Origin: Smithella sp.
GTDB taxonomy: Bacteria; Desulfobacterota; Syntrophia; Syntrophales; Smithellaceae
NCBI GenBank assembly: GCA_012510495.1
Contig: JAAZHX010000183.1
Location: 1-64,000 of the forward strand
Direction of reading: 5' to 3'
DNA length: 64,000 nucleotides
Each line of letters begins with the position of its first letter. Positions within the stretch are counted from its first letter, which is position 1. The notes below the pieces were generated by a model. That model was not told the origin of the DNA. It searched no databases and was given only the letters and a program-made list of their open reading frames with translations. The position numbers and the translations under genes are program-made. Shown one piece after another: positions 10,861 to 34,003 of this stretch.

Positions 10861-10944
10861 TCGGTAAAAATGTGATCCTCCAGACGCAAACGCTCCCGGA
10901 TGGTCACCATAAAAGAATCGCTTACCCCTAAAGGAGGCAAACGC

Positions 10945-12132: not shown

Positions 12133-12133
12133 G

Positions 12134-13195: not shown

Positions 13196-13197
13196 TC

Positions 13198-13422
13198 ATG
13201 AGTGATGATCTGAAATCCCGGGTCACCGAACTGTTCCGGGAAAAATCCAAAGGCGATAAAAAAATGTTTTACATTCGGGACGTCACCAAATGGCTGCCCG
13301 GCGAAGATCGCCACGCCATTCAAAACGCCGTGAAGGAACTCCTCGATGAGGAAGTTTTGAAATACTGGTCCAGCGGAAGTTCAACTTACCTCATCCTGAC
13401 TGAATTCTTTCCAAAGGAATAA
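13198..13422 (+). CDS. dsrD: DsrD, allosteric activator of sulfite reductase
   Basis: 74 aa from the ATG at 13198, right behind a TGGAGGT site at the dsrB end. The small basic winged-helix protein shows MFYIRDVTKWLP and SSGSSTYLIL, typical of DsrD. DsrD binds DsrAB and speeds up sulfite reduction; it is found essentially in organisms using Dsr in the reductive direction. It is the best single marker here that the pathway reduces sulfite rather than oxidising sulfur. Confidence 0.95.
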   Translation: MSDDLKSRVTELFREKSKGDKKMFYIRDVTKWLPGEDRHAIQNAVKELLDEEVLKYWSSGSSTYLILTEFFPKE

Positions 13423-14885: not shown

Positions 14886-15206
14886 ATGCCGCAGATCGAA
14901 TTAGCAGGCAAAACGTATGAAGTGGATGAAGACGGGTTTTTACAGGAACTCGACAAGTGGAACGAGGAATTTGCCGAAGCCTACGCGCATGCCGAAGAAA
15001 TCGAGGGCAAACTGACGGAAGAGCATTGGAAAGTCATCAACTACCTGCGGAACTATTATCATCAGTTCGGCATCGCCCCCATGATCCGGAAGATCTGTAA
15101 AGATCTGAAGATTGACATGAAGAAACTCTACGAGCTTTTTCCGACCGGACCGGCGAAAGGAGCGTGTAAACTGGCGGGGCTCTCGAAGCCGACGGGCTGC
15201 GTTTAG
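14886..15206 (+). CDS. dsrC: DsrC sulfur carrier
   Basis: 106 aa. The swinging C-terminal arm carries both conserved cysteines, Cys94 and Cys105 (CKLAGLSKPTGC, spacing C-x10-C, penultimate Cys), so it is a true DsrC rather than TusE or another relative. DsrC takes the sulfite-derived sulfur from DsrAB as a trisulfide and delivers it to the membrane complex DsrMKJOP for reduction to sulfide. A strong AGGAGG precedes the ATG. Being located directly between dsrN and dsrM-like genes is tighter than in many sulfate reducers, where dsrC is often elsewhere. Confidence 0.96.
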   Translation: MPQIELAGKTYEVDEDGFLQELDKWNEEFAEAYAHAEEIEGKLTEEHWKVINYLRNYYHQFGIAPMIRKICKDLKIDMKKLYELFPTGPAKGACKLAGLSKPTGCV

Positions 15207-17874: not shown

Positions 17875-18876
17875 ATGAAACAAAGCACGAACATTTTGCT
17901 ATCCTTCATCGCGATTCTGGCGATCGCCCTGGCGGCCGCAGCCGTTGCGGAAAGCCAGATTGCGGGTAATGTTCTGACCGGGATTGCGCCATATCTTGTA
18001 TTGGCGGTTTTTCTGCTTGGCTTTGTTTACCGTATCATCCGGTGGGCGAAATCCCCCGTTCCCTTCCGCATCCCCACGACCTGCGGCCAGGGGAAAAGCC
18101 TTCCCTGGGTCCAAAACAATCCCGTGGAAAATCCCGCCGGGCCGCTGGGCGCAATCGGCCGGATGGCGGGAGAAATCTTTTTGTTCCGTTCTCTGTTCAG
18201 AAACTCTCAAGCGGAAATTGTAAACGGGCGGCCGGTTTACGACAGCGCCAAATGGCTTTGGTTTTTTGGCCTGATGTTTCATCTGTCGCTGCTGGTGGTC
18301 GCGTTCAGGCATCTGCGTTTTTTCACCGAGCCGGTCGTTCCTTTTGTCATGGGTCTTTCCGCGCTGGACGGCTTTTTGGAAATCGGCATTCCGGCGCTTT
18401 ATATCAGCGATGCAACACTCCTTGCGGGGCTGGTTTTTCTCTTTCTGCGCAGAGTCTTCCTGCCGCAGGTCCGCTACATCTCCCTGTTCACCGATTATTT
18501 CGCGCTGCTTTTGATTGCGGCCATCGCGGCAACCGGCCTTTTGATGCGCCACTTCTTCCCGGTCGATCTCAACGCCGTCAAAACCCTGGCCATGAGCTGG
18601 GTGTCGTTTGCGCCGCCTGCGCCTGCGAACGCGAATGTTTTATTTTATCTGCACCTTTTCTTTGTTTTTGTCCTTATCGCCTGGCTCCCCTGGAGTAAGC
18701 TCACGCATATGGCCGGAATATTCCTGAGCCCCACGCGCAACCAAATCAACAACAACCGCAGCCAAAGACACCTCAATCCCTGGAACGCCCCGGTAAAGGT
18801 TCATTCCTACGAAGAATACGAAGATGAGTTCCGGGATAAAATGAAAGCGGCCGGTCTGCCGGTGGAGAAGGAGTAG
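17875..18876 (+). CDS. dsrM: DsrM, cytochrome b subunit of DsrMKJOP
   Basis: 333 aa with about six membrane helices. It has the conserved DsrM features IPTTCGQGKSLPWV, FLFRSLFRN, WLWFFGLMFHLSLL, FTDYFALLLI and HMAGIFLSPTRNQ, closely following remembered Desulfovibrio DsrM. The histidines in these helices bind the b hemes that accept menaquinol electrons. It starts 15 nt after the DsrK-like paralog and is followed after 2 nt by dsrK. This is the canonical M subunit, while the copy at 15308 is the divergent one. Confidence 0.95.
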   Translation: MKQSTNILLSFIAILAIALAAAAVAESQIAGNVLTGIAPYLVLAVFLLGFVYRIIRWAKSPVPFRIPTTCGQGKSLPWVQNNPVENPAGPLGAIGRMAGEIFLFRSLFRNSQAEIVNGRPVYDSAKWLWFFGLMFHLSLLVVAFRHLRFFTEPVVPFVMGLSALDGFLEIGIPALYISDATLLAGLVFLFLRRVFLPQVRYISLFTDYFALLLIAAIAATGLLMRHFFPVDLNAVKTLAMSWVSFAPPAPANANVLFYLHLFFVFVLIAWLPWSKLTHMAGIFLSPTRNQINNNRSQRHLNPWNAPVKVHSYEEYEDEFRDKMKAAGLPVEKE

Positions 18877-18878
18877 CC

Positions 18879-20480
18879 ATGTCGTTTGCGAAAATTCCCA
18901 AACCGGATGAGCTGATGCAGATCAAATACGCGCCGCCGCAAACCGCCTGGATGGAAACGCCGGTCGATTTCCGCCCCGGCACCTGGAGCTACAGCGCCGC
19001 CGCGAAAAATCTCGCGGCTCTGGACATGCCCAATCCCCGGACCTGGCAGCCCGGCGACGCCGACTGGAAACTGCCGGAGAACTGGCGGCAGATTATTCTC
19101 GACGGCATGAAGGAACGGCTCGAAAAATACCGCTCTTTCCGCCTGTTCATGGACATCTGCGTGCGCTGCGGCGCCTGCGCGGACAAATGCCATTTCTACA
19201 TCGGCTCCGGCGATCCGAAAAACATGCCGGTTCTGCGGGCCGAGCTGATCCGGTCGGTTTACCGGCGCTACTTTACGGCAGCGGGGCGCTGCTTCGGATT
19301 GCTTGCGGGCGCGCGAGACCTGACCCAGGATGTTCTCAAAGAATGGTTTTACTACTTCTACCAGTGCACCGAGTGCCGCCGCTGCTCGGTGTTCTGCCCC
19401 TACGGCATCGATCAGGCGGAAATCACCATGATCGGCCGCGAACTGCTCAACCTGGTCGGCTGCAACATCAACTGGGCGCTGGAGCCCGTGGCCAACTGCT
19501 TCCGCACCGGGAATCACCTGGGCATACAGCCGGGCGGCATCAAGGACATGCTGGAATTTCTGGCGGACGATATTGAGGATCGCACCGGCGTCCGCGTGGA
19601 AGTGCCGATCAACAAAAAAGGCGCCGACATCCTGTTTGTCACGCCGTCGGCCGACTACTTCGCCGATCCGGGAACTTACACCTGCATGGGCTACATGATG
19701 CTCTTCCACGAAATCGGCCTCAACTACACCTTCAGTACGTATGCCTCGGAGGGCGGCAACTTCGGCCTGTTCACTTCCCACGAGATGATCAAGCGCCTGA
19801 ACGCCAAGATTTACGCGGAGGCCAAACGCCTGGGCGTCAAATGGATTCTGGGCGGAGAGTGCGGCCACATGTGGCGGGTCATTCACCAGTACATGGATAC
19901 GATGAACGGCCCGGCCGACTTCCTCGAAGAACCCGTGTCTCCGGTTACCGGTACGCGTTTTGAAAACGCGCGCGCGACCAAAATGGTGCATATCGTCGAG
20001 TTCACGGCAGACCTGATCAAAAACGGCAAGCTGAAGCTCGACCCGTCGCGCAACGACCACGTCCGGCTGACGTTTCACGATTCGTGCAATCCCGCCCGGG
20101 CCATGGGGCTCTTTGAAGAGCCGCGCTGCATCATTCAAAACACCTGCAACCATTTTTACGAAATGGCCGAAGACACGATCCGCGAAAAAACCTTCTGCTG
20201 TGGCGCGGGCGCGGGACTGGGCAACGACGAAAATCTGGAGATGCGGATGCGCGGCGGCATGCCGCGGGCCATGGCCGTCCGGGACGTCGTGCAAAAGCAC
20301 GGCGTGAACCGCCTGGGCTGCATCTGCGCCATCGACCGGGCGACGCTGACGACGCTCATGGACTACTGGACGCCGGGCGTGGCCGTCATGGGCGTTCACG
20401 AGCTTCTCGGCAATGCTCTGGTGATGAAAGAAGAAAAGGAAAGAACGACTGATTTAAGAGGCGAGGAAATCGGCGGTTAG
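18879..20480 (+). CDS. dsrK: DsrK, catalytic iron-sulfur subunit of DsrMKJOP
   Basis: 533 aa, cytosolic-side subunit. Order of motifs: CVRCGACADKCHFY and CTECRRCSVFCPYG ([4Fe-4S] sites, about residues 95-108 and 164-177), then FHDSCNPARAMG and FCCGAGAGLG (CCG domain, non-cubane cluster for DsrC trisulfide reduction). Long stretches match remembered DsrK almost word for word, such as GGECGHMWRVI and QYMDTMNGPADFLE. ATG follows GGAGAAGGAG. A 74-bp gap with junk-like repeats separates it from dsrJ. Confidence 0.96.
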   Translation: MSFAKIPKPDELMQIKYAPPQTAWMETPVDFRPGTWSYSAAAKNLAALDMPNPRTWQPGDADWKLPENWRQIILDGMKERLEKYRSFRLFMDICVRCGACADKCHFYIGSGDPKNMPVLRAELIRSVYRRYFTAAGRCFGLLAGARDLTQDVLKEWFYYFYQCTECRRCSVFCPYGIDQAEITMIGRELLNLVGCNINWALEPVANCFRTGNHLGIQPGGIKDMLEFLADDIEDRTGVRVEVPINKKGADILFVTPSADYFADPGTYTCMGYMMLFHEIGLNYTFSTYASEGGNFGLFTSHEMIKRLNAKIYAEAKRLGVKWILGGECGHMWRVIHQYMDTMNGPADFLEEPVSPVTGTRFENARATKMVHIVEFTADLIKNGKLKLDPSRNDHVRLTFHDSCNPARAMGLFEEPRCIIQNTCNHFYEMAEDTIREKTFCCGAGAGLGNDENLEMRMRGGMPRAMAVRDVVQKHGVNRLGCICAIDRATLTTLMDYWTPGVAVMGVHELLGNALVMKEEKERTTDLRGEEIGG

Positions 20481-20554
20481 TGGGTGGTGCATAGTGGATG
20501 GGGTGCAGCTCGTAGCTCATAGCTGAACGTAAGCACATTACGGAATATGTAAAG
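20481..20554. other. Spacer inside the dsr operon with short decayed repeats
   Basis: The longest gap within dsrMKJOP. It contains AGCTCGTAGCTCATAGCT and TAGTGGATGG-type sequence, similar in flavour to the stretch before rpe (54955-55005). No terminator is seen, so read-through into dsrJ is expected. Confidence 0.4.
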
Positions 20555-20956
20555 ATGAAACAACATAAATGGGGCTTGATAATTCTGGGACTGGCGATCT
20601 TCGCCGTCGCGGTCACGTTTCCCTTCTGGTACGGCAAGGGAAAGACCGCCCCGCCCGTTCTCAGCCTGGAGACGCCGGAAATCAAAGGATTGGCGGATAA
20701 GAAATGCATCGAGGACAAGGACTTCATGCGCGCCAACCACATGAAGCTTTTGAATGCCTGGCGCGACGAAGCCGTCCGCAAAGGAAAGCGCGTTTATACG
20801 GCGAAAGACGGACGGACGTTCGAGAAGAGCCTCACCGGCTCCTGCATCCGATGCCACAGCAACAAGGAGCAGTTCTGCGACAGCTGCCACAATTACGTGG
20901 GCGCAAAGCCCTCCTGTTTTGACTGTCACATCGTTCCCGCGGAGGTGAAAAAATGA
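20555..20956 (+). CDS. dsrJ: DsrJ, periplasmic triheme cytochrome c
   Basis: 133 aa with an uncleaved N-terminal anchor (residues 7-25) and three heme c sites: CIRCH (97-101), CDSCH (108-112) and CFDCH (121-125). Cys51 in KKCIEDKDFM matches the conserved cysteine thought to be an unusual distal heme ligand in DsrJ. It faces the periplasm in the DsrMKJOP complex with DsrO and DsrP. Its stop overlaps the dsrO start by 4 nt. The ribosome site is weak. Confidence 0.95.
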   Translation: MKQHKWGLIILGLAIFAVAVTFPFWYGKGKTAPPVLSLETPEIKGLADKKCIEDKDFMRANHMKLLNAWRDEAVRKGKRVYTAKDGRTFEKSLTGSCIRCHSNKEQFCDSCHNYVGAKPSCFDCHIVPAEVKK

Positions 20957-21735
20957 CGCCGAGCCGCAGAGACTTTCTGAAAATCGCGGGAGTGTCCGCT
21001 TTGACGATAATGACGCCGGCGATCTTTATCCCGGCCTGGGCAAAAGACGGCGTCGTGATTCCTCCGGGGCAGGATCTTGCGCCTAAAAAGGCGCTTGCGG
21101 CCAGACGCTGGGCTATGGCGGTGGATCTGACGAAATGCACGGTGAACTGCACCGACTGTATCGTCGCCTGCCACGCGGTTCACAATGTTCCGGACTTCGG
21201 CAATCCCAAGGACGAAATCAAATGGATCTGGACGGAGCCTTTTGCCTCCGTCTTTCCCGGCGAATCGCACGCCTATTCCGGCAAAAAGCCGCGAAACCTC
21301 CGTCCGCCCGTTTTGTGCAACCACTGCGAAAATCCGCCCTGCGTCCGCGTGTGTCCGACCCGCGCCACGTTCCAGCGGACCGACGGCATCGTGATGATGG
21401 ACTACCACCGCTGCATCGGCTGCCGGCTGTGCATGGCCGCCTGCCCCTACGGCGCGCGGAGCATGAATTACCGGGATGCGCGGCCGTTTATCGCCAAAAT
21501 CAATCCGGACTTTCCGACGCGAACCAAAGGCGTCGTGGAAAAATGCAATTTCTGTGAGGAGCGGCTCGCCAAGGGAACGCTGCCCGCCTGTGTCCTTGCG
21601 TGCAGGCAAAAAGCGCTCACCTTCGGCGACGTGGACGATCCGCGCTCGGAAATCCGGCGTCTTTTAGAGACGCGTTTCAGCCTGCGGAGGCGCACGCACC
21701 TGGGCGTCGGCCCGCAGATATACTATTTGTTATGA
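20953..21735 (+). CDS. dsrO: DsrO, periplasmic ferredoxin-like iron-sulfur protein
   Basis: 260 aa. The twin-arginine signal SRRDFLK (residues 4-10) sends the folded protein to the periplasm. Four cysteine groups follow: CTVNCTDCIVACH, CNHCENPPCVRVCPT, CIGCRLCMAACPYG and CNFCEERLAKGTLPACVLAC. This fits the usual set of [4Fe-4S] clusters of DsrO/NrfC-like subunits. It links DsrJ with the quinone-reactive DsrP. It is coupled to dsrJ (ATGA overlap), and dsrP follows after 7 nt. Confidence 0.95.
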   Translation: MTPSRRDFLKIAGVSALTIMTPAIFIPAWAKDGVVIPPGQDLAPKKALAARRWAMAVDLTKCTVNCTDCIVACHAVHNVPDFGNPKDEIKWIWTEPFASVFPGESHAYSGKKPRNLRPPVLCNHCENPPCVRVCPTRATFQRTDGIVMMDYHRCIGCRLCMAACPYGARSMNYRDARPFIAKINPDFPTRTKGVVEKCNFCEERLAKGTLPACVLACRQKALTFGDVDDPRSEIRRLLETRFSLRRRTHLGVGPQIYYLL

Positions 21736-21742
21736 GGGCGCT

Positions 21743-22903
21743 ATGCTGGAAAAAGCTTTACACGGCAGCTTAAGGTACTGGATCGGGATCGCCTGTCTGA
21801 CTCTTGTCTTCTGCGCCGGATTTTTCTTCTACCTGCTCCAGCTCGATTGCGGTCTGGGCATCACGGGCATGAGCCGGGATGTTTCCTGGGGGCTCTACAT
21901 TGCGCAGTTTACCTTTCTGGTCGGCGTGGCCGCTTCGGCCGTGATGCTGGTGCTGCCCTACTATCTGCATGACTACAAGGCCTTCGGCCAGATCACCGTT
22001 CTGGGCGAGTTTCTGGCGGTTTCCGCTGTCGTCATGTGCATTCTTTTCGTTTTTGTCGATCTCGGCCGGCCTTCCCGCGTGATGAACGTGCTTCTGCATC
22101 CGCAGCCGTCATCCCTCCTCTTCTGGGATATGGTCGTTCTTTCCGGCTATCTGCTCATCAACCTCGTGATCGGCTGGGTCATTTTGTCCTGCGCAAAAAA
22201 AGAGATTCCGCCGCCAGCCTGGGCCAAGCCGATCATCTACCTGTCCATTCCCTGGGCGATCAGCATTCATACCGTCACCGCGTTCATTTACGCCGGCTTG
22301 CCCGGCCGAAGCTTCTGGCTCACCGCGATCATGGCCCCCCGCTTTCTGGCCTCCGCGTTTGCTTCGGGACCCGCGCTCCTGATTCTTGTCTGTCTGATTC
22401 TCAAGCGCTGGGGGCGTTTTGACGCCGGGGAAAAGGCCGTTCAGGCGCTGGCGAAAATCGTTGCCTATGCGCTGGCCGTGAGCATTTTCTTTGTTCTCGT
22501 GGAGCTGTTTACGGTGTTTTACAGCCAGATTCCGGAGCATATGCATCATTTTCAGTACCTCTTCGCGGGACTGGACGGGCGTCACAGCCTTGTGGCTTGG
22601 ATGTGGGCCTTTGCCGTTTTAGCGATTGCCGCTTTTGCCATCCTGATCCTTCCCGGGGTCCGCCGGCAGGAAGGCTGGCTGGCGCTGGCGTGTGTTCTTG
22701 TGTTTGTCTCCCTCTGGATCGAGAAAGGTCTGGGGCTGGTCATTCCCGGCTTCATTCCGTCTCCGCTGGGAGCGATCACCGAATATACCCCGACCGGACC
22801 CGAAATCGCCATCACCCTGGGCGTCTGGGCCGCCGGCTTTCTGATCCTGACGCTGTTGTACCGGATCTTTACGGCCGTGCATTTTGAAAGGGAGAATCGA
22901 TGA
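21743..22903 (+). CDS. dsrP: DsrP, NrfD/PsrC-family quinone-reactive membrane subunit
   Basis: 386 aa with about ten hydrophobic helices, beginning YWIGIACLTLVFCAGFFFYL and containing SRDVSWGLYIAQFTF and WAISIHTVTAFIY, characteristic of NrfD-type quinol oxidase subunits. It completes the periplasmic half of DsrMKJOP. The stop overlaps the next gene, a pyridine nucleotide-disulfide reductase, by 4 nt (ATGA), so that enzyme is translated as part of the dsr transcript. Confidence 0.93.
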   Translation: MLEKALHGSLRYWIGIACLTLVFCAGFFFYLLQLDCGLGITGMSRDVSWGLYIAQFTFLVGVAASAVMLVLPYYLHDYKAFGQITVLGEFLAVSAVVMCILFVFVDLGRPSRVMNVLLHPQPSSLLFWDMVVLSGYLLINLVIGWVILSCAKKEIPPPAWAKPIIYLSIPWAISIHTVTAFIYAGLPGRSFWLTAIMAPRFLASAFASGPALLILVCLILKRWGRFDAGEKAVQALAKIVAYALAVSIFFVLVELFTVFYSQIPEHMHHFQYLFAGLDGRHSLVAWMWAFAVLAIAAFAILILPGVRRQEGWLALACVLVFVSLWIEKGLGLVIPGFIPSPLGAITEYTPTGPEIAITLGVWAAGFLILTLLYRIFTAVHFERENR

Positions 22904-24594
22904 AGCCGAAACAGGTCATCATCATTGGAGCATCCGCGTGCGGCGCGAAAGCCGCGGCACGCATCAAAAGGCTTCGTCCGGATTATGATGTTGCCGTTCT
23001 TGATCGAAGCTCCTATATTTCCTATGCCGCGTGCGGCATGCCCTACTATCTGGAAGGAAAAGTCCGCGATCCGGACGATCTGCTGAAGACCACTTACGGT
23101 AGAGTCCGCGATATCCAGTATTTCAAGGATCTGAAAGATATCGCCATTCACGCGAATGTGAAGGCTCTGCGGATCGACCGCGAAAATAGGCGGATTGAGG
23201 CAACACACACGGCGACAGGCGAATCCCTGACCTTTGACTATGACGCCCTGGTTCTGGCGCTGGGCGCCCGCCCGAAGATGCCTCCGATTCCGGGAACCGA
23301 TCTCAAAGGCATCTATCATCTGACCCGCATGGAAGATACCCAGGGCATCGCCCGGGAAATCCAAAATCACGAACGAGGCCGCGCCGTCATCGTCGGCGGA
23401 GGATTTATCGGCGTCGAAGCCGCGGAAGCCCTGAGAGCAAAAAAATGGAATGTTACGCTGCTGGAGCGCGAAAATCAGCTCTTCCCGGACATGATTGATT
23501 TCGAGATTGCGGCGATGATCCGGGAACATTTTTATGAGCAGATGGTGGAGACGGAGTTCGACGCCGGGATTCTGTCCTTCGAAGGAGAGAACGGACAGGT
23601 TCAAAAAGTCATTACCCGGCATCATTCGTATTCCGCCGATATCGTCATCGTTGCAGCGGGGCTTGCCCCCGAGACGGAACTGACGCAGGCTGCCGATCTG
23701 GAACGGGGAGAGACAGGCGCGCTGAAAGTCAATGCGCAGATGCAGACCAGCGACCCGGCTATTTATGCCGGCGGCGACCTGGTTGAAAATACGCACATCG
23801 TCACGGGAAGGCCCTGCTACATCCCGCTGGGGTCCACCGCCAACAAGCACGGCAGGGTGATTGCCGACAATATCTGCGGCAATCCGTCAACGTTTCCCGG
23901 CGTACAGGGCACGTTCATCTGCAAGGCATTCGATTACGCCGTCGGCGCCACCGGCCTTTCGGAGGCGCAGGCAAAGCGAATGGAAATCGACGCATTTGCG
24001 ATTTCCGTCTGCGGGTTTGATAAGGCCCACTACTATCCGAACAGTCAGATCATCGCGCTGAAGCTGATTTTTGAAAACGGCACGCATAAGCTTTTGGGCT
24101 TGCAGGCTGTGGGGAAAGGCGATGTTGCGCGCCGCATCGATGTGGCCGCCACGGCGATAAGGCTGGGCGCAACGATTTCGGATATCGATGATCTGGATAT
24201 GGCTTATGCGCCTCCGTTTTCGCCGGCGCTGGATGTATTTGTCACGGCGCTCAACGTCGCGCAAAATGTAAAATCCGGCATGATGAAGCCGGTGACCGCA
24301 CAGGAGGCCAAAAAACTTCTGGATGAGGACGACAGCGTTCTGATGATCGACGTCCGGTCGGATCTGGAATTCCGGCGCGCGCACATCAGCAGCCCCAGGG
24401 TTGTCAATATTCCTCTGGATGAACTGCGCCGGAGAATTCAGGAAGTCCCGAAAGACAAAAAGATTATTTGCGTCTGTCTGCTTGGTTTACGGGGATTTTC
24501 CGCTCAGCGGATTCTGGAAGAGGCCGGCTATTCCGACGTCCGGACCCTGGAAGGCGGGATATTTTTGTGGCCCTGGAAAGAAGATCTGGATTGA
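22900..24594 (+). CDS. CoA-disulfide / persulfide reductase with C-terminal rhodanese domain
   Basis: 564 aa in three parts. First is a FAD/NAD(P)-binding oxidoreductase with GASACGAKAAA and the active-site SYAACGMPY (Cys45). Next come the NAD-binding motif VIVGGGFIGVEAAE (about 162-175) and the dimerisation domain with KMFHV-like AYAPPFSPALD. Last is a rhodanese domain (about 470-564) with ICVCLLGLRG as the active-cysteine loop. This is the CDR-RHD/Npsr architecture, which reduces CoA disulfide or CoA persulfide with NAD(P)H and releases sulfide. Translational coupling to dsrP argues for a role in sulfur reduction with Dsr, an inference. Confidence 0.9.
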   Translation: MKPKQVIIIGASACGAKAAARIKRLRPDYDVAVLDRSSYISYAACGMPYYLEGKVRDPDDLLKTTYGRVRDIQYFKDLKDIAIHANVKALRIDRENRRIEATHTATGESLTFDYDALVLALGARPKMPPIPGTDLKGIYHLTRMEDTQGIAREIQNHERGRAVIVGGGFIGVEAAEALRAKKWNVTLLERENQLFPDMIDFEIAAMIREHFYEQMVETEFDAGILSFEGENGQVQKVITRHHSYSADIVIVAAGLAPETELTQAADLERGETGALKVNAQMQTSDPAIYAGGDLVENTHIVTGRPCYIPLGSTANKHGRVIADNICGNPSTFPGVQGTFICKAFDYAVGATGLSEAQAKRMEIDAFAISVCGFDKAHYYPNSQIIALKLIFENGTHKLLGLQAVGKGDVARRIDVAATAIRLGATISDIDDLDMAYAPPFSPALDVFVTALNVAQNVKSGMMKPVTAQEAKKLLDEDDSVLMIDVRSDLEFRRAHISSPRVVNIPLDELRRRIQEVPKDKKIICVCLLGLRGFSAQRILEEAGYSDVRTLEGGIFLWPWKEDLD

Positions 24595-24685: not shown

Positions 24686-26449
24686 ATGAAAAAAGTTAAA
24701 ATGACACCCAGCGAAGCAATAGTCGAAACCCTGTTGGCCGAAGGCGTGGATCATGTCTGCGGCATCGTGGGTTCGGCCTTCATGGACATGCTGGACCTTT
24801 TCCCGACGGCAGGAATTAAATTCATTCCTGTGCGCCACGAACAAAGCGCGGCCCATATGGAAGACGCCTACTGCCGCATATCGGGCCGCTGCGGCGTCGT
24901 GACCGGCCAGAACGGTCCCGGCATCACCAACATGGTAACGTCGGTGGCGGCGGCCAACATGGGCCATACACCCCTGGTGATCATCTCGCCTTCAGCGGGA
25001 ACGCCGACCATCGGCTGGGACGGCTTCCAGGAATGCGACCAGATGTCCGTGTTCCGCTCGATCACCAAAGCAGTTGTTCGCGTGCCCCATCCGAAACGGG
25101 CCACCGACTGCCTGCGAACCGCTTTCCGCATTGCCTACGCCGACCGGGGCGCCGTCCTGTATGATATTCCCCGCGATTACTTCTACGGTGAGATGGAAGA
25201 AAAAATTCTAAAACCTTCGCAGTATCGCGTGGACGCTCGCGGTTGCGGTTCCATCGAGCAACTGAACCGGGCCGCCGAGCTTCTGTCCAGGGCGAAGAAT
25301 CCCGTCATTGTCTCCGGCCGCGGCGCGGTGGACAGCGATGCGCTGGAGATCGTCAAAGCCATTGCCGAGCATCTGACGGCACCGGTGGCGGTGACGTATC
25401 TGCACAATGATGCGTTTTACGGAAATCATCCTCTGTCCGTCGGGCCCATCGGCTACATGGGATCCAAAGCCGCCATGAAGACGCTTGCCAAAGCCGACGT
25501 CATGCTGGCCATCGGCACGCGGCTTTCCGTTTTCGGCACACTGCCGCAGTATGACATCAACTACTTCCCGGAAAACGCGAAGATCATCCAGGTGGACATC
25601 AATCCCAAGCATATCGCCCGGACGCACCCCATCGAGGTCGGCATCATCGGCGACGCCAAGGAAGCTTCCGCGGAAATCCTGAAACGACTGAAAGCGCTGG
25701 ACGGCAAACGCAAACCGGATGAGAGACGCCTGGCGGCCGTGGCCCGGGAAAACAAGAAATGGGAAAAGGAAATTGTCGATCTGGCGATGGTGGACGGCAA
25801 TCCCATCAACCCGCGCCGCGTTCTGCTGGAAATGTCGCGGGCGCTGCCGGACGACGCCATCGTGACTACGGATATCGGCAACGTCTCCTCGACAGCCAAC
25901 AGTTACCTGAAGTTCAACCATCCGCGCCGGCATATCGCGGCGCTGACCTTCGGCAACACGGGTTTTGCCTATCCCGCGGCGCTGGGCGCGCAGATTGCCC
26001 GCCCGAAAGCGCCGGTAATCGCCATCATCGGCGACGGCGCGTGGGGCATGAGCCTTCACGAAGTCAGCACCGCCGTAGAACATAACCTGCCCGTGATCGC
26101 CTGCGTCTTCCGCAACATGTGGTGGGGCGCGGAGGCCAAAAATCAGGTGGACTTCTACAACAACCGCTTTGTCGGCGTCGATATCCCAACCCCGGAAAGC
26201 TTTGTGCCGGTGGCGAAGGCGATGGGCGCCAATGCAATGCGGGTCAGCCGCCCTCAGGATATCCGGGAAGCTTTCCAATCCTGCCTGAAGAGCCGCAAAC
26301 CCACCGTGCTCGAATTCCTGGTGGACGGCAAGCAGCTCGCGCCGCCTTTCCGCAAGGACGCGCTGGCCCTGCCCACGCGCTTTCTTTCCAAGTACGCCCA
26401 TCTGGACCATCGCCACTGGGTCGATGAAGGAGGAGCCGATGATTTATAA
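24686..26449 (+). CDS. xsc: Sulfoacetaldehyde acetyltransferase (Xsc) homologue
   Basis: 587 aa from the ATG at 24686 behind GGAGG. It is a three-domain ThDP enzyme with catalytic Glu52 ([12 protein letters not shown]) and the Mg-ThDP motif [11 protein letters not shown] (about 450). It also has Xsc-specific stretches: [49 protein letters not shown] and the end [16 protein letters not shown]. Xsc converts sulfoacetaldehyde and phosphate to acetyl phosphate and sulfite. No pta or ald is adjacent. The gene lies 91 nt after the dsr-linked reductase on the same strand, so released sulfite could go straight to DsrAB. An acetolactate synthase is less likely given these motifs. Confidence 0.85.
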
Positions 26450-27278
26450 TGATTTGAAAGGAAAAACAGCGATTGTCACCGGCGCCGGTAAAAAAACAGG
26501 CATCGGCTGCGCCATCGCGGAAAAACTGGCCGCCAGCGGCTGCAACATTGTAATTGCCGATCTGGGCAAACCGCCCGTACCGGGAGAATCTCTGAACCCC
26601 GCGACCAGTGAAGAAATGAATGCGATTGCCGGGGAGCTGGCCAAAAATTACAACGTAAAAACGCTGGCCGTGCCCGTGGACGTCACGGACAACCAGGCCA
26701 TCGGCGCGATGGTGGAGACCATCAAAAAAAGCTTCGATCACATCGACATTCTCTGCAACAACGCGGGAGCGTCCTTCGGCGTTCCCAACACGGTGCTCAG
26801 CTATGACGAGGCGGCCTGGATGAAAACGATCGAAGTGAATCTGTTTTCTGTTTTTCGCATGTCACGGGCCGTTCTTCCCCTGATGGCGGGCAAGCCGGCA
26901 TCTATCATCAACACGGCCTCGCGGGCCGGCAAGGTGCCTCCCATTTTCAACAGCGCCTACGCCGTGGCCAAAGCAGGCGTTATCATGCTGACCAAAGTCA
27001 TGGCCAAAGAACTGGGCGGGGGCATGATTCGGGTCAACGCCATCTGTCCGGGACAAATCGCCACGGATCTGGAAAAATGGCGATTCGGCCTGGAGGCGTC
27101 GTTTTTCGGCACAACGATCGAAGAGCGGGAAAAGGAAATGTGCAAAACCATCCCGCTGGGATATATCGGTCTGCCCCGCGACGCGGGCGACCTGGTTGCT
27201 TTTCTGGCATCTGACGCCTCCCGTTACATTACCGGACAGGCCGTCAATCTCGACGGAGGCCAGTGCATGGAACTGTAG
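26439..27278 (+). CDS. Short-chain dehydrogenase/reductase (SDR)
   Basis: 279 aa from the ATG at 26439, whose GAAGGAGG ribosome site lies inside the xsc 3' end; the 11-bp overlap implies coupling. The cofactor motif [10 protein letters not shown] (14-23), the NNAG motif, catalytic Ser about 160 and Tyr/Lys about 173/177 (SAYAVAKAG) are all present. The [11 protein letters not shown] and [10 protein letters not shown] closing elements are classical SDR. In sulfonate pathways SDRs oxidise isethionate, DHPS or sulfolactate-type alcohols; a role in feeding Xsc is inferred from position only. Substrate unknown. Confidence 0.85.
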
Positions 27279-27306
27279 GGTCAATTTCACATCAAAGCAA
27301 CGAATA

Positions 27307-27340
27307 CCGGCAGGGAACGGTCGCGACCGCTCCCTGCCGG
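27307..27340. repeat. Palindromic extragenic repeat, family A copy 2
   Basis: 34 bp with 17-bp arms, CCGGCAGGGAACGGTCG pairing with CGACCGCTCCCTGCCGG, one mismatch. It lies between the SDR and the second ThDP enzyme gene. It shares the GGGAACGG core with the copies near 8481, 30494 and 55742. Confidence 0.85.
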
Positions 27341-27413
27341 CGGGATACATCAACAGTATTTTTGATTTAGCATCGGTATAAAATAACGTATCGATTGATT
27401 AGGAGGATTCATC

Positions 27414-29111
27414 ATGGATAACATTATCGGCGGCAAGCTCGTTGCGGACGCCCTGGTCGAACGGGGCGTGGATTACGTTTTTTCGTTGAGCGGCGGGCAC
27501 ATCACACCCATTTACCAGTTTCTGGAAAAGTCACCCGTCACCATCTTTGACGTGCGCCATGAACAGGCGGCGGTTTTCATGGCTGAAGCCTGGGCCAGGC
27601 TCAGCCGTAAACCCGCTGTGGCGATGGTCACGGCCGGGCCGGGATTCACCAACGCACTCACCGGGATCGCCAGCACGAGACTGTCCAACGCGCCGGTGAT
27701 TCTGATTTCCGGATGCGTGGGACTCGACAGCGTTGAAAAACTGGACCTGCAGGACATGACCCAGCTCCCCGTCATCGAACCGATGGTGAAAAAAGCGCTG
27801 GTCTGCTACCTGCCGGAGCGCATTCCCGAGTATATCGACATGGCCTTCCGCGCCGCTATGAGCGGGCGGCCCGGGCCGGTTTATCTGGAGTTTCCCTGCA
27901 ACATTCTGAACGCCAAAGTAGATATGGCCGCGGTCAAGAAACCAGGCACAACACTATTATCCAAGCCGGTTGACCGCGAAAACACCCGGAAGGTTGTCGA
28001 TTTGCTCAAGGCAGCCAAAAATCCCGTCGTTATCGGCGGCAGCGGCCTGTGGTATTCGGATGCGGAAAAGGAAATTCTCGAATTCGTCGAAAAAACCGGC
28101 ATTCCGATTTACACGGCAGGCGCGGGCCGCGGCGTCGTGCCGGATACGCATCCGCTTTGCTTTGAAGGCTCTCTGGCCATCCGGCCGGGTTCGGCGATGC
28201 TTGCGCTGATGACGACCGACCTGGTGCTCTTTTTGGGCGGCCGGCTGAGTCTTTTCTACATCTTCGGCGAAATTTTCCCATCGACGGCCAAATTTGTTCA
28301 GGTTGATATCGCCGCCGATGAAATCGGCCGCAACCGCACGATCGATCTCGGCATCGTCAGCGACATCAAGGCGTTTCTGAAGGAGCTCAACGCCATCCTC
28401 GACGAGCAGAAAATCGGCGGGACGCTGAAAAAGCAGTTCCAGCCCTGGGTGGATACCGTCCGGGCGGCTCACGAGGCCGGCAAAAAAGACGCCAAAGCGA
28501 TGTGGGAGTGCGAAACCCTGCCCATGCATCCCATGCGGCTGGCCAGAGAAATCAACGAATTCATGAACCGCGAGGATGACATTGTCGTCGCGGACGGCGG
28601 GGACACGGCAACCTGGATGGGCATGACGAGAACCGTCAGAAAGGGCGGTACGTATCTGGACTACGGCCTTTACGGCTGTCTGGCCGTCGGCATTCCCTAC
28701 GCCAACGCGGCCAAGCTCAGAAATCCGGACAAGCGCGTCTTGCTCATCATGGGCGACGGATCGGCCGGCTTCAACTTCATGGAATTTCACACGGCGATCC
28801 GCAAAAATCTGCCCATCGTTGTCGTGATCGGCAACGATCAGTCTTGGGGTATGATCATGCACAGCCAGACCCTCCGGCTGGGGCACCATATCCCCGACGG
28901 CACGGAGCTGGGGTGGGTCGATTACCACAAGATGGTGGAAGCCCTGGGCGGCTTCGGCGCGATGGTGGAAAAACCCGAAGACATCAAGCCCGCGCTGGAA
29001 GCGGCTTTTGCCTCCGGGAAAACCGCCTGCATCAATGTCAAGGTAGATCCTTCCGTGATCAGCCCCGGCAGCGTTGCCCTGGCCAATCTCGGCGGATACA
29101 AATGTGAATGA
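27414..29111 (+). CDS. ThDP-dependent enzyme of the acetolactate synthase-like superfamily
   Basis: 565 aa, full three-domain ThDP enzyme. Catalytic Glu50 is in DVRHEQAAVFMAE, the N-terminal domain has TAGPGFTNALTGIA, and the cofactor motif is GDGSAGFNFMEF (about 447) followed by NDQSWG. It is clearly different from the Xsc gene 1 kb upstream (no KNQVDFY motif). Family members decarboxylate 2-oxo acids, cleave 2-hydroxyacyl-CoA or join aldehydes. A decarboxylase acting on a sulfonated 2-oxo acid such as sulfopyruvate would fit the context, but nothing in the sequence proves it. AGGAGG precedes the ATG. Confidence 0.8.
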   Translation: MDNIIGGKLVADALVERGVDYVFSLSGGHITPIYQFLEKSPVTIFDVRHEQAAVFMAEAWARLSRKPAVAMVTAGPGFTNALTGIASTRLSNAPVILISGCVGLDSVEKLDLQDMTQLPVIEPMVKKALVCYLPERIPEYIDMAFRAAMSGRPGPVYLEFPCNILNAKVDMAAVKKPGTTLLSKPVDRENTRKVVDLLKAAKNPVVIGGSGLWYSDAEKEILEFVEKTGIPIYTAGAGRGVVPDTHPLCFEGSLAIRPGSAMLALMTTDLVLFLGGRLSLFYIFGEIFPSTAKFVQVDIAADEIGRNRTIDLGIVSDIKAFLKELNAILDEQKIGGTLKKQFQPWVDTVRAAHEAGKKDAKAMWECETLPMHPMRLAREINEFMNREDDIVVADGGDTATWMGMTRTVRKGGTYLDYGLYGCLAVGIPYANAAKLRNPDKRVLLIMGDGSAGFNFMEFHTAIRKNLPIVVVIGNDQSWGMIMHSQTLRLGHHIPDGTELGWVDYHKMVEALGGFGAMVEKPEDIKPALEAAFASGKTACINVKVDPSVISPGSVALANLGGYKCE

Positions 29112-29184
29112 GTTACCGGCAGGTTGTCAACTCTGAAAAGAAGCAGGATGAATATCAACGAATTCATAGAAAAAAGGAGGCCCC

Positions 29185-30486
29185 ATGAATAACGTCGCTG
29201 CTCCAAAGGAATACAAGCTGTCCACCCGAAGCACCTACTACATCTTCGCCCTGCTCTTTCTGCTGTATTTCTTCGATTATGTGGATCGGATGGTCGTGAC
29301 GTCCCTTTTTCCCTTCATTCAAAAGGAATGGGGGCTGACCGACACCCAGTCCGGATTGCTTGTGTCGGTAGTTTACTGGTCTATCGTCGCTTTCGTGCTT
29401 CCCGTTTCCATCCTTGTGGATCGCTGGAGCCGGAAAAAAACCATCGGCATCATGGCCTTTGTGTGGAGCATGGCCACGTTGGCCTGCGCTTTCACCAAGA
29501 CCTTCCCCCAGCTGATCATGACCCGGGCCGCCATCGGAATCGGCGAGGCCGGATACGCCCCGGCCGGCACGGCCATGCTTTCGGGTCTGTTCCCTGAAGA
29601 GAAACGGTCCCGGATGATGGGGCTCTGGAATATGTCCATTCCTCTCGGAACAGCCGTCGGAATCGGGCTGGGAGGCTTCATTGCCGCGCACTGGGGATGG
29701 CGTCACGCTTTCGGCGTGGTGGCGATTCCCGGGGCAATAGTGGCCCTCCTGTTTTTCTTCGTCAAGGATTACAAGACGGTGGAGCTGGTCAAGACCGACA
29801 AGACCGATGTTGCGTACGAGGGCCGTTCAAAAAAAATGAGCAAAATGGATATCGTGCGGGAATTTCTCCACACCCCTTCGCTGATCTTCACCAACCTCGG
29901 ATTTATCGGTTGTATCTTCGCCAACAATGCGATCATGGTCTGGCTTCCCACCTATTTTCACCGGACGACGGGCATCCCCATGAGCGAAGCGGGCATCAAG
30001 GTGAGTATGCTCATGATCCTGGCCATTATCGGGCTGCCTTTGGGGGGATGGCTGGCGGATATGTGGTTTAAGAAGCGGCCAAGCGCACGGCTGCTGCTTC
30101 CCGCAATCACAACAATCCTGAATGCCCTCTTTATCTTTATTGCTTTTTCCTTTATGGAGGGGAAAACACAGTATATCACTCTTCTGGGCATGGGCGTGCT
30201 GGCCTCCGCTTTTGCCCCGGCGGCGATTATCGCCACGCAGGAGGTTATCCATCCCGGCCTTCGGGCGATCTCCTACTCGGTTTGCGTAATTGTCCAGAAT
30301 CTCCTGGGGGCCTCGCTGGCGCCCATTGTAATCGGGAAGATCTCCGATCTGCATGGCATCAAGGCAGCCATGTCGATCATTCCAATTTTTCTTGTGATTT
30401 CAGCCCTGCTGTTTTTTACCGGCTCCTTTTTCTACAAGAAGGATCTGGATAAAGTGGAAAAGATTACCCTGGAATGCGAGGACTAA
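29185..30486 (+). CDS. MFS transporter (anion/organic acid carrier type)
   Basis: 433 aa, twelve predicted helices in two bundles. It has DYVDRMVVTSLFPFIQKEWGL near the start and the motif A loop VDRWSRKKTIG between helices 2 and 3, as in the ACS/GudP-like and spinster-like MFS carriers of organic anions. A strong AAAAAAGGAGG precedes the ATG. It lies 73 nt after the second ThDP enzyme and before the alcohol dehydrogenase. Uptake of the substrate metabolised by this cluster (a sulfonate by hypothesis) is the natural guess. Confidence 0.85.
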   Translation: MNNVAAPKEYKLSTRSTYYIFALLFLLYFFDYVDRMVVTSLFPFIQKEWGLTDTQSGLLVSVVYWSIVAFVLPVSILVDRWSRKKTIGIMAFVWSMATLACAFTKTFPQLIMTRAAIGIGEAGYAPAGTAMLSGLFPEEKRSRMMGLWNMSIPLGTAVGIGLGGFIAAHWGWRHAFGVVAIPGAIVALLFFFVKDYKTVELVKTDKTDVAYEGRSKKMSKMDIVREFLHTPSLIFTNLGFIGCIFANNAIMVWLPTYFHRTTGIPMSEAGIKVSMLMILAIIGLPLGGWLADMWFKKRPSARLLLPAITTILNALFIFIAFSFMEGKTQYITLLGMGVLASAFAPAAIIATQEVIHPGLRAISYSVCVIVQNLLGASLAPIVIGKISDLHGIKAAMSIIPIFLVISALLFFTGSFFYKKDLDKVEKITLECED

Positions 30487-30493
30487 AATATGT

Positions 30494-30524
30494 GGCAGGG
30501 AACGGTTTGAAACCGTTCCCTGCC
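30494..30524. repeat. Palindromic extragenic repeat, family A copy 3
   Basis: Perfect 15-bp arms GGCAGGGAACGGTTT and AAACCGTTCCCTGCC around a single G. It lies between the MFS stop and the dehydrogenase ribosome site. Confidence 0.85.
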
Positions 30525-30542
30525 GCGAAGGAAAGAGATTTT

Positions 30543-31565
30543 ATGAAAGCCGTTGTATATCGCAAGGACCGGGATCTGGTTTATGAAGAGATCCCCGATT
30601 ATACAGTTGCTGAAGACGAGGTGTTGGTGAAAGTGGCCAACACGGGATTTTGCGGCTCCGATCATTCCCTGGTCGCCAGCGGTCATCTGGCCGACGGCGT
30701 TATCCTGGGACATGAAATCAGCGCCGTCATCGTAGAAAAAGGCGCGGCCGCCGGCGGTCCCCCCGTGGGAACGAAAGTCTGCATCCGCCCCACCTACTGC
30801 GGCAAATGCGCCAACTGCCTTTCCGGCAGGCCGCACCTGTGCCGGGTTCACCGGCGGACCACGGGAATCGGCGATTTGCCGGGCGGCTTCGCGGAGTATG
30901 TCAAAGTCTATCCGCAAATGCTGATTCCCATCCCGGACGGCGTGGATTCCCGAAACGCGGCGCTCGCGGAAACCTTTGCCTCCGCCCTGCACGCCATCGG
31001 CTGCACCAGCGACCGGAAAGGATCGGCGCTGATCATGGGAGGCGGCCCCATCGGCCTTTGCGCCGTCCGGCTGCTCAAAATCCTCGGCTACGGCCCGGTA
31101 GTTCTTTTCGAACCGGTCGCGACCAAGCGCGAAATCGCCGTTTTGTACGGAGCCGATCAGGTCCTCGATCCGCTGGAAAAAGACGCGGATCAGAAAGCGA
31201 TGGCGGCTGCGCCCGGAGGCTATGGGAAAATATTCGAGTGCTCCGGCGTCAAGGCCAACATCAACCGCGCCGTGCTCCTGGCCGGAGACGCGGGGGAAAT
31301 CTGCATCGTGAGCATGATCTTCTCCCCGGTCAGCCTGGAGGCGCCTTTCCTGGTTAATCTCAAGGAGATCCGACTGACGGCTTCCAACTCCAACACGCAC
31401 GCGGAAAACATTCAGTGCCTGAACTGGATGGCCCAAGGCAAACTGGACGCGCGGCCGCTGATCTCCGACTATGAGCCGCTTGCACGCCTGCCCGACGTTT
31501 ATCGGGAAAGAATCGACACCGGCCTGACCGTCAAAGTGCTGTTGAAAATCGGCGAGGAATTTTAG
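30543..31565 (+). CDS. Zinc-dependent alcohol dehydrogenase (MDR family)
   Basis: 340 aa from the ATG at 30543. Catalytic zinc ligands are Cys37 (FCGSDH) and His57/Glu58 (LGHEIS). The structural zinc site is Cys86, 89, 92 and 100 (YCGKCANCLSGRPHLC). The nucleotide fold has IMGGGPIGLCAVRLL. The layout resembles threonine/sorbitol dehydrogenases. It probably oxidises the secondary or primary alcohol of the cluster's substrate to the aldehyde or ketone; if the cluster handles sulfonates, DHPS, sulfolactate or isethionate are candidates, untested. A longer in-frame start at 30474 would read through the palindrome and is rejected. Confidence 0.85.
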   Translation: MKAVVYRKDRDLVYEEIPDYTVAEDEVLVKVANTGFCGSDHSLVASGHLADGVILGHEISAVIVEKGAAAGGPPVGTKVCIRPTYCGKCANCLSGRPHLCRVHRRTTGIGDLPGGFAEYVKVYPQMLIPIPDGVDSRNAALAETFASALHAIGCTSDRKGSALIMGGGPIGLCAVRLLKILGYGPVVLFEPVATKREIAVLYGADQVLDPLEKDADQKAMAAAPGGYGKIFECSGVKANINRAVLLAGDAGEICIVSMIFSPVSLEAPFLVNLKEIRLTASNSNTHAENIQCLNWMAQGKLDARPLISDYEPLARLPDVYRERIDTGLTVKVLLKIGEEF

Positions 31566-31579
31566 GAGGCACAGCAAGC

Positions 31580-31849
31580 GTGGTCGAATCCTATGAATTG
31601 ATTTACGGCTTTGTGCATTGCCGGGGAAGAACCGAATACAGCGCCGGAGAAGTCGATTCAAAAGAAGAAGCCGAAGCCTGGGTAAAAAACCACCGGGAAG
31701 GCCTGCTGCCGAAGATCAAAATACCGCCCGAGGATCCGATACGATATTGTCGGGCGGCCTGGTGCCCTTTTAAAAAGCAAAAGCCGTGGTTTGACATGAG
31801 GCCCAAAGGGGATGCCCAGACAGTAAAGATGAAAAAAGATCAAGGATGA
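31580..31849 (+). CDS. Small conserved-looking protein, unknown
   Basis: 89 aa with a GTG start behind AGGAGG (10-nt spacing). It is acidic/basic mixed with no membrane segment. YSAGEVDSKEEAEAWVKNHREG looks like a short alpha-beta unit, and three cysteines occur (CRGRTEY, RYCRAAWCPF). It overlaps the following TetR gene by 4 nt and follows the dehydrogenase by 14 nt, so it is part of the operon. I do not recognise the family. Confidence 0.6.
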   Translation: MVESYELIYGFVHCRGRTEYSAGEVDSKEEAEAWVKNHREGLLPKIKIPPEDPIRYCRAAWCPFKKQKPWFDMRPKGDAQTVKMKKDQG

Positions 31850-32475
31850 AAGATATGGGAGCCAAAGAAAGACGGAAAAGAGAAAAAGAACAGCGCAAAA
31901 ATCATATTCTGGATACGGCCCGGGAGCTTCTCCTGGAAAAGGGAATGAACGCCACCTCCATCAACCAGATTGCCCGGCGCTCCGAACTCAGCATCGGCGC
32001 CATCTATTTTCACTACAAGGACAAGGAAGAAATTTTCGCGGCGCTTCAGGTGGAGGGGCTGGAGCTGCTGTACCGGACGATCCTTGCGGCCGTCGAAAAA
32101 AAATCGACGCCCGAGAAAAAAATCCGTTCCATCGCCCGGGCCTATTTGCGCTTCAGCGAAGAGCACAAAAACTACTTCGACATCATCAATTACTTCCTGA
32201 CATCGCCGGGAACCATCTTTTCCCCCGTGCTGAAAAAAGAAATCGACGAGCACGGCAAAGCCAGCCTCGCTCTTTTAGCCGACGCGATCCGCGAGGGGAT
32301 CGAGCGGGACCAGTTCAAAAAAGTGGATCCCCGGCGGCAGGCCATAATCCTCTGGAGCACCTTCAACGGCGTGATCCAGATCAAGAAACTGGAAAAAACC
32401 ATCATCGGCAAAGGCGAACATCATTCCCTGTATATGGAAGCCCTGGAACATTTTCTGAGCGGCCTGCGCACGTGA
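31846..32475 (+). CDS. TetR/AcrR-family transcriptional regulator
   Basis: 209 aa. The N-terminal helix-turn-helix is typical: RILD-like NHILDTARELLLEKGMNATS, then INQIARRSELSIGAIYFHYKDKEEIF (about residues 17-60). A variable ligand-binding domain follows. The ATGA overlap with the preceding gene couples it to the putative sulfonate operon, which it likely regulates in response to a pathway intermediate. A second ATG nine bases later is possible. No operator could be defined by eye. Confidence 0.9.
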   Translation: MKDMGAKERRKREKEQRKNHILDTARELLLEKGMNATSINQIARRSELSIGAIYFHYKDKEEIFAALQVEGLELLYRTILAAVEKKSTPEKKIRSIARAYLRFSEEHKNYFDIINYFLTSPGTIFSPVLKKEIDEHGKASLALLADAIREGIERDQFKKVDPRRQAIILWSTFNGVIQIKKLEKTIIGKGEHHSLYMEALEHFLSGLRT

Positions 32476-33011: not shown

Positions 33012-33099
33012 GTCCCCGTTATTTCCAAAAGTGGATACAAAACAGTTGCTATTTTCCGGTAATTCGCTTAACGTCTATTCAAACAAATATAGGATTAAT

Positions 33100-33916: not shown

Positions 33917-33959
33917 GCACTTTCCTTCTTAACACCAATTTTGACAACATTCTTCTATG

Positions 33960-33988
33960 CTTGTTCAACCGGAGAACGGTTGAACAAG
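33960..33988. promoter_or_regulatory. Hairpin upstream of fic, possible operator
   Basis: Perfect 11-bp arms CTTGTTCAACC and GGTTGAACAAG around GGAGAAC, about 44 bp before the fic start codon. It could be a protein-binding palindrome or a leftover terminator. Nothing else is visible in 33917-34003. Confidence 0.4.
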
Positions 33989-34003
33989 CAGTTATATTGT
34001 GCC

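Follow-up and report, generated by a model that had tools for sequence, protein, structure and literature searches.

The stretch of DNA analysed in this study (the window) comprises 64,000 nucleotides of contig JAAZHX010000183.1 from a Smithella sp. (assembly GCA_012510495.1), in which a group of six genes follows the dsr genes of dissimilatory sulfite reduction. The contig is 101 kb long and comes from a 2.8-Mb draft genome that is 100% complete. The gene order is dsrAB, dsrC, and dsrMKJOP, then xsc (sulfoacetaldehyde acetyltransferase), a short-chain dehydrogenase/reductase (SDR), a second thiamine diphosphate (ThDP) enzyme named ThDP2 here, a major facilitator superfamily (MFS) carrier, a zinc-dependent alcohol dehydrogenase (Zn-ADH), and tetR. 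All six genes from xsc to tetR are open frames on the + strand. From dsrP onward, neighbouring genes are separated by 73 bases or overlap, except for gaps of 135 bases before ThDP2 and 280 bases before tetR. The six-gene, one-strand module next to the dsr genes that had been proposed in a preliminary description of this DNA is confirmed by the open frames and the family scores. The sole gene between dsrP and xsc encodes a CoA-disulfide-reductase-like protein fused to a rhodanese; such a fusion was recognised in 5 of 30 loci from relatives as well. By the ThDP2 protein, the nearest named relatives are metagenome-assembled genomes (MAGs) titled Smithellaceae (95%) and Smithella sp. (92%). Overall, the operon probably degrades a small sulfonated compound, with sulfite and acetate as products, and the route is apparently undescribed. 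It is very likely that Xsc and Dsr are supplied from an organosulfonate and that the SDR and ThDP2 belong to this path.

The window Xsc scores 841.8 bits with TIGR03457, for which the equivalog cut-off is 676.4, and it is 50% identical to an annotated Xsc from Rhodococcus and 25% identical to ThDP2. The open frame of xsc begins at 24668; of three Smithellaceae Xsc proteins in the tree, two start at the conserved Met that lies at 24686 in the window, and one contains it internally. A quick tree was built from 25 rows; it carried a long-branch warning, with the Halomarina row among those flagged, and separated 21 Xsc rows from three acetolactate synthases (SH-aLRT 99). The Xsc active site includes a Glu (E510) and a Gln (Q125) in Q84H41 (PMC13327070, Table 1). 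The corresponding residues in the window Xsc are E489 and Q121. The Glu is present in 21 of 21 Xsc rows and is replaced by Val or Ile in the three acetolactate synthases and in ThDP2; the Gln occurs in all 25 rows, and therefore only the Glu discriminates Xsc. Xsc and acetolactate synthase share one fold family, and TIGR00118 gives the window protein 404 bits; however, this score is under its cut-off of 538, while the TIGR03457 score, the separate position of the synthases in the tree, and the Val or Ile that they have in place of Glu489 make it hardly credible that the protein is in reality an acetolactate synthase or another ThDP enzyme. Acetolactate synthase was ruled out by the two model scores and the tree. 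The preliminary description had let its proposal hang on the place of this protein in the Xsc clade, and the tree puts it inside the annotated Xsc, with the Glu kept, so that this condition did not overturn the proposal, which is supported. By its curated score, tree position, and signature Glu, the window protein is judged to be a genuine Xsc.

The gene set of a dissimilatory sulfite reducer, dsrAB, dsrC, and dsrMKJOP, is present in the window. The products of dsrA, dsrB, cobB, dsrM, dsrK, dsrJ, dsrO, and dsrP pass equivalog cut-offs, and that of dsrC passes a subfamily cut-off. Neither sat nor aprA was found in the genome of the window (G000), where the best aprA-like match reached 26 bits, and sulfate reduction by the window organism was ruled out on this basis. 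In a sample of 59 genomes, made up of G000 and 58 relatives, aprA and sat were found in one genome each, in both cases G045, which has dsrA and no Xsc. Since Xsc occurs together with dsrA in this sample (see below) and sat and aprA are confined to one genome lacking Xsc, the genomes with Xsc look like sulfite reducers fed by sulfonate, not sulfate reducers. Members of the Smithellaceae are known as syntrophs. In a survey of dsrAB, an uncultured DsrAB lineage was placed in the order Syntrophales (PMC10591310).

The ThDP2 enzyme and its partner SDR

No NCBIfam family passes its cut-off for ThDP2, and with the 2-hydroxyacyl-CoA lyase equivalog NF058623 it scores 341 bits, under the cut-off of 600. 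In the PDB, the folds nearest to its AlphaFold2 model (pLDDT 84.1, from 23 sequences) are 2-hydroxyacyl-CoA lyases and synthases (best E 2.7e-46), followed, at a TM by query of 0.85-0.87, by benzaldehyde lyase and formolase. Residues G28, H29, E50, T73, and Q113 are kept in 81 of 81 ThDP2 sequences. Of these, H29, E50, T73, and Q113 align with benzaldehyde lyase, the active site of which includes the residues at H29, E50, and Q113. Tyr397 of benzaldehyde lyase, which we take to be a pocket residue, aligns with Ala399 in the window ThDP2 and mostly with Gln, Ser, or Thr elsewhere. By numbering, with a constant shift of 15, the five kept residues correspond to G43, H44, E65, T88, and Q128 of an actinobacterial 2-hydroxyacyl-CoA lyase (AcHACL). 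In AcHACL, G43, H44, and T88 face the substrate hydroxyl, and Glu493, the homologue of which in benzaldehyde lyase is Thr481, protonates the carbanion (PMC13327070). All 81 ThDP2 sequences have Ile481 at the place of this Thr481 in the alignment, and thus lack a counterpart of Glu493. ThDP2 therefore resembles benzaldehyde lyase, formolase, and 2-hydroxyacyl-CoA lyase in fold and in the kept residues, but it shares 25-33% identity with the listed fold matches and lacks the AcHACL Glu. Taken together, the residues suggest that ThDP2 is a lyase for a 2-hydroxy-carbonyl compound, and, judged by context, its natural substrate must be small and sulfonated. Arg406, likewise invariant in 81 of 81 sequences, is a candidate for a basic residue that would contact the sulfonate group.

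Of the 73 ThDP2 loci that include at least 900 nt upstream, 70 have an SDR of at least 55% identity; the exceptions are L124, L125, and L153, which have a glycyl radical enzyme (see below). S166 and K170 of the SDR are invariant among 68 sequences, and R167 is present in at least 97% of them. Arg167 and Lys170, lying beside the catalytic Ser166, may suit an anionic substrate, although this is suggestive only.

Co-occurrence of Xsc, ThDP2, and Dsr

Among the 59 genomes, Xsc was found over cut-off in 20, dsrA in 26, and ThDP2 (at least 65% identity) in 24. ThDP2 occurs in 19 of the 20 Xsc genomes versus 5 of the 39 others (Fisher p 5e-10), and dsrA in 18 of 20 versus 8 of the 39 genomes without Xsc over cut-off (p 3e-7), where the p-values treat as independent genomes that, as relatives, are not. 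The link between Xsc and Dsr, which had been drawn earlier from local adjacency, thus holds statistically as well. In the sole Xsc genome without ThDP2 (G018), Xsc lies on a 5-kb contig that stops inside the SDR gene. The five ThDP2 genomes without Xsc include G024, where Xsc scores 672 bits, just under the cut-off of 676, and G014, where it is broken: its frame (L079, 5942-7288; the same gene in L088) encodes 448 aa with the middle gone, and the neighbouring operon genes are whole.

In 30 loci of relatives, Xsc was present at 85-97% identity in 18 and at 48% in one, and the SDR and ThDP2 genes adjoin it in most of these, a recurrence that exceeds chance. The order in relatives is dsr-ackA-xsc-SDR-ThDP2-MFS-ZnADH(-tetR), with ackA (acetate kinase) identified in L059. 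An ackA match was found in 12 of the 14 Syntrophales loci with an intact window-type xsc; in the other two the contig edge comes first. A 2-hydroxyglutaryl-CoA dehydratase D-like protein is encoded ahead of ackA-xsc-SDR-ThDP2 in G021 (L068, 7177-8478), and an acyl-CoA dehydratase activase ahead of SDR-ThDP2 in L117 (8367-9137). Across 395 genomes of the phylum, Xsc is present in 13 of 23 with ThDP2 versus 17 of 372 without it; outside the order of the window the counts are 9 of 17 versus 17 of 362.

A wider set consisted of the best 80 of 365 ThDP2 relatives from a species genome collection. For the genome-wide count of Xsc, 11 of the 81 ThDP2 rows had no Xsc state and were omitted, so that 70 were scored; the genome-wide search covered 50 of the 80 loci, and the other states came from the 59-genome search and from the loci themselves. 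The count of 43 of 70 scored genomes with Xsc includes states for L127 and L149 that rest on Xsc fragments under cut-off, and for L089, L099, L105, and L108 that were scored through matching contigs. Within the 80 loci, whose flanks are often short, Xsc was labelled in 26 (including the broken one in L088), aldehyde:ferredoxin oxidoreductase (AOR) in eight, a glycyl radical enzyme (GRE) in three, an MFS, SBF, or DASS carrier in 66, and a further dehydrogenase, either Zn-ADH or a different SDR, in 54. The SDR-ThDP2 pair recurs in Desulfobacterales and Spirochaetes, and three Xsc lineages were found in ThDP2 loci, namely the window type, a type of Desulfobacula, Desulfatibacillum, and Spirochaetes, and a Roseobacter type (L164). 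The SDR-ThDP2 core can occur apart from Xsc and has a wide distribution, which goes beyond the preliminary description.

The GRE gene adjoins ThDP2 in L124, L125, and L153, of which L124 alone also has Xsc. The GRE of L124 scores 1182 bits on the HpsG model (cut-off 1000). Its nearest PDB chain is IslA 5YMR (966 bits), ahead of 6LON (889 bits), an HpsG chain. The L124 enzyme shares 91% identity with the GRE of L125 and 86% with that of L153. It appears to be of the HpsG/IslA type, and may be either of the two.

A possible pathway and its rivals

Algae and plants produce 2,3-dihydroxypropanesulfonate (DHPS), sulfolactate, and isethionate in abundance; what is known of the anaerobic breakdown of these compounds concerns mainly the radical enzymes of gut bacteria. 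In the 59 genomes no protein exceeds the cut-off of 1000 for the HpsG model NF048011 (best in G000, 475.8 bits), and none exceeds that of ComE (TIGR03846), for which there were three weak matches, none in G000. The earlier statement that islA and comDE are missing has held at curated cut-offs for ComE and for HpsG, whose model was the closest to IslA among those used (IslA itself was not modelled), and a GRE route was accordingly rejected for the window organism. No Tpa is encoded among the operon genes; no genome-wide search was aimed at tpa or slcC. The IslA and HpsG routes resemble the present system in that anaerobic C-S cleavage feeds sulfite respiration (PMC8473560, PMC12890257), but the window genome and its 58 relatives differ from them in the lack of an HpsG-model match over cut-off. 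In Taurinivorans muris (PMC10507020), Xsc likewise releases sulfite in an anaerobe, AckA takes the acetyl phosphate, and DsrAB-DsrC reduces the sulfite while sulfate is not respired; there, however, Tpa makes sulfoacetaldehyde from taurine, and in the present operon its place is taken by an SDR, a Zn-ADH, and a benzaldehyde-lyase-like enzyme. Among the literature titles and abstract openings listed, no ThDP or benzaldehyde-lyase step in sulfonate breakdown was found, and no sulfonate use by Smithella or Syntrophales; neither the SDR-ThDP2 entry nor the use of Xsc by Smithellaceae had a counterpart there. Therefore, the end of the pathway, in which Xsc feeds DsrAB in an anaerobe, is known, and its start, the SDR-ThDP2 entry, is probably undescribed. 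The new path to sulfoacetaldehyde that the preliminary description supposed is a candidate only, well motivated by ThDP2.

A possible course of the pathway can be described as follows. The MFS carrier would import a hydroxy-sulfonate, most likely DHPS, and the SDR, with the Zn-ADH perhaps acting on the other enantiomer, would oxidise it to 3-sulfolactaldehyde or the ketone isomer. ThDP2 would split the resulting 2-hydroxy-carbonyl compound into sulfoacetaldehyde and formaldehyde, either isomer giving the same products. Xsc would then turn sulfoacetaldehyde and phosphate into acetyl phosphate and sulfite, acetate kinase, the gene of which adjoins xsc in relatives, would make ATP, and Dsr would reduce the sulfite to sulfide. 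In the AOR genomes, the same aldehyde may be oxidised rather than desulfonated. Genes for every step from uptake to sulfite are thus in the cluster, with ThDP2 as the putative middle one. The gene families, the membership of Xsc, the conservation, the co-occurrence, and the lack of sat and aprA are established by the analysis. The full chain, with DHPS as the substrate and C-C cleavage by ThDP2, is given a probability of roughly 0.4, the substrate, the ThDP2 reaction, and the roles of the dehydrogenases and carrier being inferred.

For the oxidation step, a comparison is offered by Roseobacteraceae, in which HpsO (an SDR) and HpsP (a zinc-dependent medium-chain dehydrogenase/reductase) oxidise R- and S-DHPS, respectively, to sulfolactaldehyde; HpsO has catalytic Ser145 and, two residues on, the marker Gln147 (PMC11131964). 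Both systems encode an SDR and a zinc-dependent medium-chain enzyme together with transporters and a regulator, and DsHpsP (8wwd) is fifth of the 30 PDB matches of the Zn-ADH (8.6e-28). The HpsO/HpsP route differs in that it proceeds to sulfolactate, with no ThDP lyase step described in the available text. Direct identification of the SDR as HpsO and of the Zn-ADH as HpsP was given up, as the HpsO marker is absent and the HpsP score is low, and the pair is regarded as working like these enzymes.

Several observations weigh against the DHPS pathway. The window SDR reads S166-R167-A168, with Ala168 where HpsO has Gln147, and the HpsO structure 8WWF is not among its listed PDB matches (the best 60 of 80). 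The Zn-ADH scores 100 bits against DsHpsP; the published cut-off of 137 bits refers to RpHpsP and was set for other data (PMC11131964). The correspondence with AcHACL is one of numbering. The cluster has no gene dedicated to formaldehyde, and ackA is absent from the window and was not found on the rest of its contig. Xsc and ThDP2 occur without dsrA in G021 and G033, the three GRE loci have no SDR next to ThDP2, and the draft genome has a contamination of 6.56%. Finally, 27 of the 70 scored ThDP2 genomes have no Xsc, eight of them with AOR instead, and therefore the product of ThDP2 might be another aldehyde.

In the main rival to the DHPS pathway, ThDP2 is a one-chain sulfopyruvate decarboxylase, and the SDR and Zn-ADH oxidise both enantiomers of sulfolactate to sulfopyruvate ahead of Xsc. 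The SlcC/ComC-ComDE-Xsc route has this topology, with unrelated enzymes. Formaldehyde handling would not be needed and the two dehydrogenases would be explained; since no ComE over cut-off was found in the 59 genomes, a sulfopyruvate route would need another decarboxylase. However, six non-CoA 2-oxoacid decarboxylases (PDC, IPDC, BFD, and PPDC among them) have His or Leu where AcHACL has Gln128, and Glu or Leu at the Ile481 site (PMC13327070, Table 1), whereas ThDP2 has Gln113 and Ile481 in every sequence, and the kept His29 and Thr73 match, by number, AcHACL residues that face the substrate hydroxyl. Gln113 is no proof against decarboxylation, because acetohydroxyacid synthases and pyruvate oxidase also have Gln at that site and yet decarboxylate (same table). 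On balance, sulfopyruvate decarboxylation is unlikely. ThDP2 was rejected as a standard 2-oxoacid decarboxylase, the signature of which it does not have, and the sulfopyruvate enzyme was nonetheless kept as a rival.

It is quite improbable that the SDR and ThDP2 cleave another ketol with a sulfoacetaldehyde half, such as 4-deoxy-4-sulfoerythrulose, an intermediate of the sulfo-TK pathway. There, a ThDP transketolase (SqwGH) yields sulfoacetaldehyde from this compound by C-C cleavage (PMC12890257), and an acyloin-lyase site would fit such a ketol. SqwGH is, however, a transketolase acting on sulfosugars, while ThDP2 belongs to the pyruvate-oxidase/acetolactate-synthase family, and the dsr and operon genes scanned included no recognisable gene of sulfoglycolysis, such as one for a sulfosugar isomerase.

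The distribution of Xsc bears on a further alternative, in which Xsc is fed otherwise, by isethionate through the Zn-ADH or by taurine through an unlinked aminotransferase, and SDR-ThDP2 serves an unrelated acyloin, the aldehydes of which go to AOR elsewhere. The 27 Xsc-less genomes would suit it, as would the finding of Xsc in 0 of 8 AOR genomes versus 43 of 62 others (p 2e-4). An aminotransferase (NF005812; its 481 bits fall slightly short of the cut-off of 488) is encoded between xsc and SDR-ThDP2 in L164, a MAG the title of which is just 'bacterium', and therefore the Xsc of L164 may serve taurine, a further point against the DHPS pathway. Three Xsc lineages nevertheless adjoin SDR-ThDP2 in distant groups, and an HpsG/IslA-type GRE stands beside ThDP2 alone. 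The exclusion between AOR and Xsc is also expected if one aldehyde has two fates, and it fits a different aldehyde equally well. Such separate feeding is considered improbable.

It is tentatively proposed, with the odds somewhat against the whole, that a benzaldehyde-lyase-like ThDP route cuts oxidised DHPS in several phyla of anaerobes, in company with Xsc, an HpsG/IslA-type GRE, or AOR, and that Smithellaceae respire organosulfonates. If so, the window bacterium and its relatives would breathe sulfonate, a thiamine-based route would exist for the anaerobic breakdown of C3 sulfonates, and the occurrence of dsr genes without sat and aprA in Smithellaceae would be accounted for. The proposal also makes a prediction that can be assayed on an as yet uncharacterised family of enzymes, and the isolate Desulfatibacillum alkenivorans DSM 16219 (L157) has this family.

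Coordinates and surroundings of the cluster

Coordinates of the six-gene cluster and of the dsr region in the window.
Feature	Position	Strand	Basis
xsc, sulfoacetaldehyde acetyltransferase (P0001)	24686..26449	+	TIGR03457, Xsc clade, Q121/E489
SDR dehydrogenase (P0002)	26424..27278, start may be 26439	+	PF13561, PF00106
ThDP2 (P0003), benzaldehyde-lyase/2-hydroxyacyl-CoA-lyase-like	27414..29111	+	fold, conserved residues
MFS carrier (P0004), D-galactonate-transporter-like	29185..30486	+	PF07690; TIGR00893 184 bits, under cut-off 395
Zn-dependent medium-chain alcohol dehydrogenase (P0005)	30474..31565, likely start 30543	+	PF08240/PF00107
TetR-family regulator (P0006)	31846..32475	+	PF00440; operon end in several relatives
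dsrA + dsrB	10900..13195	+	TIGR02064 561 bits, TIGR02066 528 bits, both over cut-off
Small open frame, 78 aa, at the place of dsrD	13186..13422	+	size and place only
dsrC/tusE family protein	14886..15206	+	TIGR03342 119.7 bits, cut-off 53.5
dsrMKJOP	17875..22903	+	NF038037, NF045796, NF038038, NF045797, NF045798, all over cut-off
CoA-disulfide-reductase-like + rhodanese fusion	22900..24594	+	TIGR03385 421 bits, under cut-off 579; PF07992 + PF00581

The gene cobB lies between the 78-aa frame and dsrC. Ahead of dsrMKJOP lies a second pair of DsrM-like and DsrK-like genes (15308-17859), the scores of which are under the cut-offs and which is present in relatives too. A scan for promoters and terminators gave the same counts as shuffled sequence. 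Between the MFS gene and the likely start of the Zn-ADH gene, at 30494-30524, there is an inverted repeat of 14 bp without mismatches and with a loop of 3 bases, and a partial copy of it lies at 27309-27323, between the SDR and ThDP2 genes. One half of this palindrome has three matches in the window versus 0.17 expected, and the same palindrome precedes ThDP2 in L080/L089.

Beyond tetR, the stretch of about 32500-43560 encodes two proteins longer than 1100 aa, one of which is weakly like the DISARM helicase DrmD (146 of 610 bits), as well as a Fic-like protein and one that bears a short SEC-C-like motif. The stretch ends near a tRNA-Leu gene (43435-43521). In G011 (L069, L090), tetR is followed directly by the gene that stands at 43633 in the window, and therefore the stretch looks like an inserted island.

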